IMG/VR virus record: IMGVR_UViG_3300037293_000055
Coordinates: 1 to 24,226 of that record
DNA: 24,226 bases
Strand: one strand, 5' to 3'
DNA from: a virus
Shown here: piece after piece, positions 8,879 to 11,600 of the stretch
Layout of the letters: every line of letters starts with the position of its first letter
How positions within the stretch are numbered: position 1 is the stretch's first letter
Position numbers and translations under genes: made by a program
The notes under the pieces: model-generated
What the model was told of the DNA's origin: nothing
Database searches by the model: none
What the model saw: only the letters and a program-made list of their open reading frames with translations

Positions 8879-10432
8879 ATGGCAATTCAAACAATTCCTG
8901 GATTAACTGGTTTTACTTATGCACGTGTAGCCTCTATGGACAAACGTGCAATTGGTAAATTAACAGATTCCAATCACTTAGAGTCTATGCACTCTGTAGA
9001 ACCAGCTGACTATGATAAAAAAATTATCAGCTTGTATACTCAGACATCATTATACAGTAATGATTTCTTAGATATGATCAATAAGTCTACTCCTTTTTAC
9101 ATTGACAATGCCTCTGATGCTTGGAAATGGAGTATTGAAGTACCTTATAAATTTCCTAAAATTATAGATGTTCCTGGAACTACTATGGAACTAATTAAAC
9201 CTGGTCAAGATGGTCAAGAGTTTCAAGTAGTATTGGATACTAATGAATTTTCTAAAAATGCAATTGTATCTGTTGGTACAAGACAATTTGGCCCAAGATT
9301 CTATGTAACTAAAGATCCTCTTCCATGGAACACAGGTTACTTATATACATTTACATTAGTAAGTGAAAACCCAATTGTAGATTTCGTAAGTTCTCAATAT
9401 TTACAAGTAGGTATTGAAATGGAATTAGTTGATGCTGCTATTGGTGAGTTTGATCAAGACTTATTAGGTTTGCCAAGACTAGGTGAAAAAATAACTATGT
9501 TTGAAACATTAGGCTCAGCATATGGTTATGAGCACAAAATTACTGAGTGGGCTGATGACAAAATGTTAAGAGATCAACAAGGTAATCCTGCTGATATTTT
9601 AGTATACAGCCAACAAAGACGTAATGAGTTACCAATGACTCAAAATCATCTTAAGTGGGAGCCCTTCATTGAATTCTTAATGCGTAAGTCTATGATGGAA
9701 CTTAAGGTTAAGAAAATGATTTGGGGTAAACCAGGTACAGTTAAATCTGGTGGTGGTAAACAAGAACTTAAGCGTACGTCTGCAGGTATTTATCACAGAA
9801 TGCGTAACAACGGTAACTTAGTACAATATAACAGAGGAGAGTTTTCTGCAAATTTACTTCGTACAGTATTTGGTGACTTATTTTACAGACGAGTGGATGT
9901 AAAAGACAGGCGTGTTAAAATGTATACTAATGAAGCTGGTTTTGATGTATTTCAGCAAGCTTTAAAAGAAGATGCTTTAAACTCTGGATTAACTTTTACT
10001 GCGGATTCTGGAGACAGATTCTTACAAGGTAAAGGTCAGAACATAACTTACAACTTTGCTTTTGATTCTATGGTTACTCGTGAAACTGGTAAAGTTGAAT
10101 TAGTACACTTAAAAGAATTAGATTTGCCACAAACAAATCTAGACTTTGGTCAAAACAAAAAATCTACTCCAGTATTTATGGTGTTTGATGTATCTCCTAG
10201 TTCTGATGGATCATTGTTGAATAACATTAGAGAAGTACGTATGAAAGGTGCACCTTCTATGACTTGGGGTTATATTGATGGAACACGTCATCACTTAGGT
10301 TTTGCTAAATCTCAAGGTATGAGTTCAGCAAATAAATTCCCAGGATATGAGCTTTGGATGAAAGACAGATGTGATATCTTTATTGAAGATTTATCAAGAA
10401 CTGTATTAATTGAAGAAATTCCTCAATTCTAA
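8879..10432 (+). CDS. Major capsid protein (crAss-like, HK97 fold expected)
   Basis: 517 residues, 26 bases after the scaffold candidate. The start MAIQTIPGLTGFTYARV and the sequence KRAIGKLTDSNHLESM near residues 22-37 fit my recollection of crAss-type major capsid proteins. The protein is mixed beta/alpha with no signal peptide or membrane segment, and has many aromatic and basic patches later (RTSAGIYHRMRNNGNL near 297-312). HK97-fold shell assembly is family knowledge, not visible in single motifs. Codon use differs slightly from neighbours, with more CGT and CGC Arg codons, as often seen in highly expressed genes. A tetraloop hairpin begins 11 bases after the stop. Confidence 0.88.
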   Translation: MAIQTIPGLTGFTYARVASMDKRAIGKLTDSNHLESMHSVEPADYDKKIISLYTQTSLYSNDFLDMINKSTPFYIDNASDAWKWSIEVPYKFPKIIDVPGTTMELIKPGQDGQEFQVVLDTNEFSKNAIVSVGTRQFGPRFYVTKDPLPWNTGYLYTFTLVSENPIVDFVSSQYLQVGIEMELVDAAIGEFDQDLLGLPRLGEKITMFETLGSAYGYEHKITEWADDKMLRDQQGNPADILVYSQQRRNELPMTQNHLKWEPFIEFLMRKSMMELKVKKMIWGKPGTVKSGGGKQELKRTSAGIYHRMRNNGNLVQYNRGEFSANLLRTVFGDLFYRRVDVKDRRVKMYTNEAGFDVFQQALKEDALNSGLTFTADSGDRFLQGKGQNITYNFAFDSMVTRETGKVELVHLKELDLPQTNLDFGQNKKSTPVFMVFDVSPSSDGSLLNNIREVRMKGAPSMTWGYIDGTRHHLGFAKSQGMSSANKFPGYELWMKDRCDIFIEDLSRTVLIEEIPQF

Positions 10433-10442
10433 TAAATAAATT

Positions 10443-10462
10443 CCTCCTTAGAAATAAGGAGG
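10443..10462 (+). other. 8-bp GAAA tetraloop hairpin after the capsid gene
   Basis: CCTCCTTA (10443-10450) pairs perfectly with TAAGGAGG (10455-10462) around a GAAA tetraloop. It starts 11 bases after the capsid stop. No T-run follows (TCTTAAAG), so it is more likely to protect the 3' end of the capsid message or attenuate readthrough than to terminate fully. Confidence 0.6.
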
Positions 10463-10477
10463 TCTTAAAGAGTGTTG

Positions 10478-10494
10478 TATAAGTTTTACTTATA
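10478..10494 (+). other. 6-bp hairpin upstream of the tRNA
   Basis: TATAAG (10478-10483) pairs with CTTATA (10489-10494) around TTTTA. It lies between the capsid 3' hairpin and the tRNA. AGAGTG at about 10470-10475 and CACTCT at about 10516-10521 could also close a longer stem over this segment. This could be a precursor fold for tRNA processing, but the evidence is weak. Confidence 0.3.
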
Positions 10495-10519
10495 GCTAAG
10501 GTTTTTCAATAAACCCACT

Positions 10520-10606
10520 CTACAAATTGCGTGGTAGAGCAGTTGGTTAGCTCGCAAGGCTCATAACCTTGAGGCCATGGGTTCGAATCCCATCTACGCT
10601 ACAAAT
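10520..10606. repeat. 8-bp direct repeats CTACAAAT flanking the tRNA
   Basis: CTACAAAT occurs at 10520-10527, ending exactly at the base before the tRNA, and again at 10599-10606, overlapping the tRNA's last three bases. The repeats bracket the tRNA. They could be a footprint of insertion or recombination at the tRNA, or chance in AT-rich DNA. Confidence 0.4.
10528..10601 (+). tRNA. Initiator-type tRNA-Met (anticodon CAT)
   Basis: A full cloverleaf can be drawn. The acceptor is TGCGTGG with CTACGCT, including one G-U and an unpaired T1/T72. The D stem is GAGC/GCTC with loop AGTTGGTTA, the anticodon stem CAAGG/CCTTG with loop CTCATAA (CAT at 10562-10564), and the T stem ATGGG/CCCAT with loop TTCGAAT. 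The discriminator is A, and CCA is not encoded. The absent 1-72 pair and the purine11:pyrimidine24 pair (A-T) are hallmarks of bacterial initiator tRNA rather than elongator Met or Ile2. The classic three G-C pairs of the anticodon stem are reduced to two, since 29:41 is A-T. It lies in the untranslated gap between capsid and next gene, whose ATG is 30 bases later, so it must be cut out of a long message or use its own promoter. Confidence 0.9.
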
Positions 10607-10631
10607 AAAACCAAATTAATTAAACTACATC

Positions 10632-11600
10632 ATGGGTAAATCAGGAAAGATCTCAACGATCAAAAAGGAAACACATAGCTCTCAATTGCAAACAATGCAA
10701 ACTGGTCTAGCTGCTAAAGGGATGACAAGAGTTCCTGGCACAGGAGTTTTTAAATATCCTTACAAAGAGTTAGATGGAAAATACAGAACAGGTCTAGATC
10801 CTGACGCAGGATATATAAGAAGAATTATAGATCCTACAGAAAGAGAACTCGAAATAGAAAGAGTAACCGATCTAAAAGATAAATTACAAAAAGCTCTAGG
10901 AGATATAGACTTAGGACCAAGATCTAAATTTTGGAATTATTCCTTATCTTCAGGTTCAAATGACACATTACATGTTCAACCAGTAAAATTGTTAGATGGT
11001 GATAACTATTTTGATTTAGGAGTAAGCTTTCAAGAGATAGCTTTTTCGTGGTTAAGAGTTCATCCAACTATTGCAAGTTCATACCAAGCTTGGGAAAGAG
11101 GAGAATTTCCTTCTGATACACAGTTTTATGTAGTGGATGAAGATGTTGAAAGTGGAATCATTTACAGAAAGAAACAAGTTGTCAATAAAGCTATTGTTAA
11201 ATTTGATGTAATGAGTCCTGAGAAGAAAAAGAAAGTTGCAAGACTATTAGGTTTGGCAATTACAGATAATACTAAAGAAGAAATTGTTTATAACTTAGTT
11301 GATAACGTTCTTAAACAGTCTGAATTTAAATCTGGATCTTTTAAAGGATCTAATCCAGTAGAAGTGTTTACTAGATTTGCTGATATGAAAGATGATTTAC
11401 TACATATTAAAGATTTAGTTCGTCAGGCACTGGATCACTCAATTTACAGAGCTAAACCTTCTGGTAAAGTTTATGAAGGAGATTTTGAAATTGCAAATGA
11501 CACTGAAGACTTAATTAAGTATTTAATAGATGATGAACACCAAGATGAATTATTAGTTTTGGAGCAAAAATTAAAAAGTAAAAAACTAGCCTCTGTTTAA
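10632..11600 (+). CDS. Conserved-looking structural protein after the capsid gene, function unknown
   Basis: 322 residues beginning MGKSGKISTIKKETHSSQ, a basic and probably flexible N-terminus. The middle is mixed alpha/beta with an aromatic segment (VSFQEIAFSWLRVHPTIA near 137-154). The C-terminal third is helical and acidic (TEDLIKYLIDDEHQDELL). No enzyme motif or membrane segment is visible. Position between the capsid gene and connector-type genes suggests a head or neck component of the virion. The gene's stop codon lies in the loop of an 11-bp hairpin, an unusual arrangement (see the feature at 11584). I do not recognise a named family and leave the role open. Confidence 0.75.
   Translation: MGKSGKISTIKKETHSSQLQTMQTGLAAKGMTRVPGTGVFKYPYKELDGKYRTGLDPDAGYIRRIIDPTERELEIERVTDLKDKLQKALGDIDLGPRSKFWNYSLSSGSNDTLHVQPVKLLDGDNYFDLGVSFQEIAFSWLRVHPTIASSYQAWERGEFPSDTQFYVVDEDVESGIIYRKKQVVNKAIVKFDVMSPEKKKKVARLLGLAITDNTKEEIVYNLVDNVLKQSEFKSGSFKGSNPVEVFTRFADMKDDLLHIKDLVRQALDHSIYRAKPSGKVYEGDFEIANDTEDLIKYLIDDEHQDELLVLEQKLKSKKLASV

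Follow-up and report, generated by a model that had tools for sequence, protein, structure and literature searches.

A solitary initiator-type tRNA gene behind the capsid gene of a phage with terminase and portal related to those of crAss-like phages

We find a tRNA gene with a canonical cloverleaf and the features of the initiator class between the major capsid gene and the next gene of the virion operon in a 24,226-base virus record (hereafter the window), and the same gene, with compensatory base changes, at the same place in related phages. The best explanation, to which we assign a probability of approximately 85%, is a phage-encoded initiator tRNA of the tRNA-fMet type, which would be processed from the phage message and used in the ribosomal P site.

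Results

The tRNA gene and its class

ARAGORN, a check proposed in a preliminary description of this DNA, called a tRNA-Met(CAT) at 10528-10602. The Rfam model RF00005 matched 10528-10601 over its full length with 65.7 bits (E 1.9e-12), and this was the sole Rfam match within the window. The parsed stems (TGCGTGG TA GAGC AGTTGGTTA GCTC G CAAGG CTCATAA CCTTG AGGCC ATGGG TTCGAAT CCCAT CTACGCT A) give a canonical cloverleaf with anticodon CAU. The acceptor stem begins with a U.U mismatch at 1:72, followed by G2:C71, C3:G70 and G4:C69, while position 11:24 is A:U. The anticodon stem contains A29:U41, G30:C40 and G31:C39, and thus two of the three G:C pairs (29:41, 30:40, 31:39) often associated with initiators. 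The pairings read in the preliminary description (T/T at 1-72, A11:T24, A-T at 29:41, two of three G-C pairs) all agree with this parse. The gene ends with A73 at 10601; the CCA is unencoded, the next bases being CAA. A chance origin is ruled out by the 65.7-bit score together with the covariation and synteny described below.

Table 1 Features in and around the intergenic region.
Feature	Position	Strand	Basis
Major capsid protein gene	8879..10432	+	major head protein phrog_11589, E 6e-36
Hairpin CCTCCTTA-GAAA-TAAGGAGG behind the capsid stop codon	10443..10462	+	MFE fold
Three-way-junction RNA	10469..10521	+	structure descriptor match, covariation, MFE fold; 6 bases upstream of tRNA
Initiator-type tRNA gene, anticodon CAU	10528..10601	+	ARAGORN, RF00005, parsed pairs, homologue covariation, conserved place
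A-rich leader of the 322-aa gene (CAAATAAAACCAAATTAATTAAACTACATC)	10602..10631	+	conserved among relatives
322-aa gene downstream of tRNA	10632..11600	+	phrog_16383, E 3e-6, phage family of unknown function

The class of the tRNA was assessed using a published re-annotation of 9,917 bacterial CAU tRNA genes (PMC5143459). In this set, A11:U24 is present in 4430 of 4438 initiators and in none of the 2762 elongator Met or 2717 Ile2 genes. The U.U combination at 1:72 occurs in 207 initiators, compared with one elongator Met and one Ile2 gene, and the AGG/CCU arrangement at 29-31/39-41 in 522 initiators, again compared with one gene in each of the other two classes (PMC5143459). When these three frequencies are multiplied as if independent, the odds for initiator over elongator are of the order of 1e8. 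Every feature reported to help formylation (G2:C71, C3:G70, A11:U24 and an unpaired 1:72; PMC7949028) is found in the window tRNA. When E. coli genomes were searched with its sequence, the median number of matching places per genome was 4. The best match examined belongs to an array of three tandem tRNA-Met genes next to amiC, which we take to be the metZWV initiator cluster.

An elongator tRNA-Met or a lysidine-modified tRNA-Ile2 would have the CAU anticodon in common with the window tRNA, and the AGTTGGTTA D-loop is similar to elongator D-loops. However, this D-loop is also present in cellular initiators (L089-L095), an unpaired 1:72 is seen in only ~0.5% of elongator Met and Ile2 genes, and A11:U24 occurs in none of the 5479 genes of these two classes, which leads us to reject both readings as exceedingly improbable (PMC5143459). 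The elongator hallmark of C11:G24 with a paired 1:72 is absent from the window tRNA. Class frequencies, the E. coli match in a tRNA-Met cluster and 11 distinct homologues that never pair 1:72 (see below) strongly support the initiator-type identity put forward in the preliminary description, which had named a clear elongator Met or Ile2 identity as the outcome that would overturn it.

Genome and operon context

The window has the gene order terminase-portal-capsid. The terminase matches crAss-like phages at 23-30% and Leptolyngbya phage Lbo-JY46 at 41%, with corresponding values of 23-26% and 27% for the portal; by sequence, both proteins appear related to those of these phages. A tblastn search with the capsid matched only Lbo-JY46 (26%), with no match to crAss-like phages. 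Closer relatives have a capsid gene 86-87% identical to that of the window.

The three-way junction precedes the tRNA and the A-rich leader follows it (Table 1). Flanked by the capsid gene and the next operon gene, the tRNA has the virion-operon location originally proposed; the upstream neighbour is indeed the capsid gene (phrog_11589), whereas the label "structural" given to the downstream gene is likely only (phrog_16383). No promoter-like site was found on the + strand near the tRNA, which makes it likely that the tRNA is co-transcribed with the virion operon, and this would fit the predicted processing of the tRNA from a longer message.

A Shine-Dalgarno core within -20 to -4 was found at 0 of 22 gene starts in the window, and the leaders are A-rich, in line with the earlier remark on Shine-Dalgarno-free, A-rich phage genes. 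The purpose proposed with that remark, start-codon decoding for such genes late in infection, is not specific, as the majority of close relatives share the operon and are without a tRNA at this place. The many close relatives without the tRNA also argue against Shine-Dalgarno-free genes as such needing an initiator tRNA.

In two related records of 113,586 (G467) and 110,147 bases (G470), the initiator tRNA is the sole RF00005 match, and in a third of 114,355 bases (G001) it is the only one above the family cut-off. With an initiator as the sole detected tRNA, compensation for internal codons is excluded as its purpose. Other carriers have a second, tRNA-Leu-like element in addition to the initiator tRNA. 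These tRNA-Leu-like genes (L100-L103, L360, L362 and L364, from family members G002, G003, G008, G009, G469 and G473) can be recognised by their acceptor, D and T arms, but a long variable insert either enlarges the anticodon arm or takes its place.

Neighbouring RNA elements

The MFE fold of the 199-base intergenic region (10433-10631) has a z-score of -3.46 and consists of a hairpin, a three-way junction and the tRNA-like fold. The three-way junction is the single descriptor match in the window, with 0.22 expected per shuffle. It is made up of P1 (AGAGTG/CACTCT), a P2 hairpin and P3 (GGTTT-TTCAAT-AAACC), with P3 abutting P1 much as the T arm of a tRNA abuts the closing stem. Fifty distinct relatives (e.g. 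L042 from 2270 and L030 from 5660) have the element at this position, the majority of them without the tRNA. Both P1 and P3 covary on both sides (P1 pair 5: U-A 23, G-C 27; P3 pair 2: C-G 38, G-C 8, U-A 4), with UUC(A/G)NU as the P3 loop in nearly all cases. This assessment used the structure descriptor and per-pair counts, MAFFT misregistering the variable P1. An Rfam search gave no match for the three-way junction. On the basis of these sequence comparisons, it appears to be an undescribed, strongly covarying RNA that is family-wide even where the tRNA is absent.

The hairpin behind the capsid stop codon is listed as terminator-like on the - strand only, and relatives have a different, larger hairpin at this place. 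Its arms, CCTCCTTA and TAAGGAGG, correspond to an anti-Shine-Dalgarno paired with a Shine-Dalgarno sequence, in a window where gene starts are without Shine-Dalgarno motifs. As the hairpin sequence differs in relatives, this pairing is possibly due to chance.

Conservation among relatives

Relatives were first gathered via the capsid, yielding 80 loci: three with the tRNA at the same place, one with an odd tRNA-like gene (L035) and 76 without a tRNA call. Pattern scans then widened the set of carrier contigs to 28, counting the window; their tRNAs comprise 11 distinct sequences. The capsid gene and the 322-aa gene flank the tRNA in every carrier contig that extends to both sides. Compared with the window, the capsid of these contigs is 84-87% identical where full length and the 322-aa protein approximately 73-77%. 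The odd gene (L035:5724-5794), at the same place, has a 6-nt anticodon loop (ARAGORN "ag"); a three-way junction was looked for at this site and not found.

Across the 11 distinct homologues, position 1:72 is never paired (C.A in 8, A.A in 2, U.U in 1) and 30:40 is always G:C, while the outer pairs 29:41 and 31:39 vary (AU/GC in 6, GC/AU in 4, AU/AU in 1). A11:U24 is seen directly in 10 of the 11, the D arm of the remaining one (L083) being shifted or rearranged. In an alignment of 7 homologues, the anticodon and T stems are 100% paired and six pairs are double-changed, with 12 double-changed cells compared with 3.5 in shuffles. Carriers of the tRNA cluster on the tree of the 322-aa protein (2 changes, compared with 6.8 for shuffled labels), on which the window itself forms a long branch. 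The tRNA thus evolves under constraint. Synteny, compensatory changes and tree clustering suggest that it predates the split of the lineages or has moved among them, the initiator form having been held since. That most relatives with the same operon are without the tRNA indicates it is dispensable or replaceable.

HNH-type ORFs are located downstream of the capsid gene, at the site of the tRNA in others, in three loci (L006, L019 and L051), suggesting that the site is an insertion hot spot. In L265/L266, an HNH-type ORF (1791-2468) splits the initiator tRNA gene just past the anticodon loop; behind this ORF comes an aberrant tRNA-like gene, which is read as Thr(CGT). An alternative reading is that the tRNA is a passenger with little effect, which homing endonucleases or recombination carried to an intergenic site prone to insertions. 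The ORFs at the site and inside the tRNA gene, the odd gene of L035 and the absence of the tRNA from most relatives are consistent with this. However, compensatory changes and maintained initiator features across 11 distinct sequences, next to a 322-aa protein that is itself 73-77% identical to that of the window, make a passenger improbable.

A further alternative is RNA punctuation, in which the chief role of the tRNA would be to offer RNase P a cut site that parts the capsid mRNA from the downstream message. Its position exactly between the two genes, behind a structured RNA and with no + strand promoter-like site nearby, would suit such a role. Initiator features are unneeded for a cut site, yet they have been kept through base changes, and a pure processing signal is disfavoured on this ground. 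In addition, 5' processing is reported to be compromised by C1.A72 (PMC5143459), and the three-way junction stays in place in relatives without the tRNA. We therefore also consider RNA punctuation an unlikely main function.

The anticodon-stem pair 29:41 in cells and phages

The preliminary description held that A29:U41 departs from bacterial initiators. This view does not stand up to the published counts: AGG/CCU is the second commonest anticodon-stem type of cellular initiators (522 of 4438), and together with AGG/UCU (34) brings A29 to 12.5% (PMC5143459), placing A29:U41 within the bacterial range. Three G:C pairs are thus not strictly defining for bacterial initiators. Nor does A29:U41 appear special to the window tRNA, as judged from genome matches. 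It is found in the Holospora initiator and, among the matches listed, in many Pseudomonadota and in 1 of the 130 matching genomes from the phylum to which L091 belongs; of the 69 matching genomes from the phylum of L090, approximately 13 have A29 or U29. An attempt to trace the host by an exact-pattern scan of genomes for cellular tRNAs with the same core gave only initiators of Holospora, Phycisphaerae, Ruminococcaceae and Candidatus Pseudoscilispira; the core is common by type and provides no host link.

A sample of 75 distinct initiator-type tRNAs was collected from IMG/VR with a pattern constrained at the D stem and loop, the anticodon stem being left open. G:C is present in 73 of these at 30:40, in 59 at 31:39 and in 27 at 29:41; the other 48 have A:U (31) or U:A (17) at 29:41, the latter almost unknown among cellular initiators. 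The full GGG/CCC stem occurs in 20 of 75, compared with 3849 of 4438 cellular initiators (PMC5143459; Fisher p ~2e-31, a value overstated by shared ancestry and by hosts differing between the sets). A stricter subset, from which tRNAs near locus ends and those of the TCAGG type were removed, has GGG/CCC in 18 of 54. The GGA/UCC stem of the window's phage family is found in 0 of 4438 cellular initiators (PMC5143459). These counts would allow, as a tentative and by no means favoured proposal, that phage initiators form their own class in which the "3GC" feature has been relaxed in a set order (30:40 kept, 31:39 mostly kept, 29:41 mostly lost), furthest in the window's family (GGA/UCC, AGA/UCU), possibly by selection during infection, e.g. 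for toxin escape or altered P-site competition.

A related possibility is counter-defence, whereby the phage tRNA would be a replacement initiator whose altered anticodon-stem pairs resist host nucleases or toxins directed against tRNA-fMet. The tRNA would still be an initiator, and the proposal concerns why it is kept. VapC of Shigella and Salmonella cleaves tRNA-fMet between A38 and C39, and a Leptospira VapC also cleaves tRNA-fMet (PMC4105405), while phage tRNAs have been proposed to evade tRNA-cleaving enzymes (PMC10264068). The group-wide alteration of the anticodon stem (48 of 75 without G29:C41), the U39 that replaces C39 at the cut site in 5 of 11 distinct family sequences and the patchy presence of the tRNA, as expected for an arms race, would all fit. 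However, the window tRNA retains A38-C39 and shows no change in its anticodon loop, CUCAUAA, and the phages studied in PMC10264068 generally avoid tRNA-fMet. On balance, we hold counter-defence to be rather doubtful as the reason for keeping the tRNA.

Discussion

Proposed role of the phage initiator tRNA

We infer that the initiator tRNA is transcribed and processed, charged and formylated, and then used in initiation to the benefit of the phage, along the following lines. The tRNA is probably part of a long virion-operon message, from which host RNase P and 3' nucleases would cut it, with CCA being added by the host enzyme. Host MetRS would then charge it with methionine and the host transformylase formylate it, allowing it to act as an initiator in the ribosomal P site, so that it would supplement the initiator pool of the infected cell or take its place. 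One live reason for keeping the tRNA would be a larger initiator pool during phage takeover of translation; another would be to make good the loss of host initiator to toxins that cleave tRNA-fMet, VapC among them. A virus with an initiator as its only detected tRNA isolates the question of why a phage carries an initiator at all. The natural variants, some of which have only the middle "3GC" G:C pair, offer material for establishing which features are read by the P site and by toxins that cleave tRNA-fMet.

Comparison with known initiator tRNAs

The window tRNA shares with bacterial tRNA-fMet the CAU anticodon, unpaired 1:72, A11:U24, G2:C71, C3:G70, G30:C40, G31:C39 and A73. It differs from the usual form in having A29:U41, as in 12.5% of cellular initiators, an unencoded CCA, and U.U at 1:72 where bacteria usually have C.A. 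The Holospora cellular initiator has A29:U41, G30:C40, G31:C39 and the AGTTGGTTA D-loop in common with it, and differs in C1.A72 and U27:A43.

Among phages, 345 records match E. coli tRNA-fMet, although a few look like host sequence or prophage fragments. The phage tRNAs compared here include those of Gordonia phage GodonK, Mycobacterium phage Myrna, Cellulophaga phage phi4:1, Cronobacter phage GAP32, Caulobacter phage RB23 and Stenotrophomonas phage vB_Sm_QDWS359. The phage initiators examined are mostly annotated as tRNA-Met, with one tRNA-fMet. The named phage tRNAs share unpaired 1:72, A11:U24 and G30:C40 with the window tRNA, to which that of GodonK is 88.9% identical, and 29:41 is mostly A:U or U:A (A:U in GodonK, Myrna, phi4:1 and GAP32; U:A in RB23 and Elanor; G:C in Lak-B1 and QDWS359). 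Phage initiator tRNAs are thus already known from hundreds of phages, and the window tRNA is a well-supported addition. What is unusual here is the group-wide loosening of 29:41 together with a solitary place behind the capsid gene: most phage initiators examined adjoin other tRNA genes, whereas the window tRNA stands alone between the capsid gene and the next gene of the virion operon.
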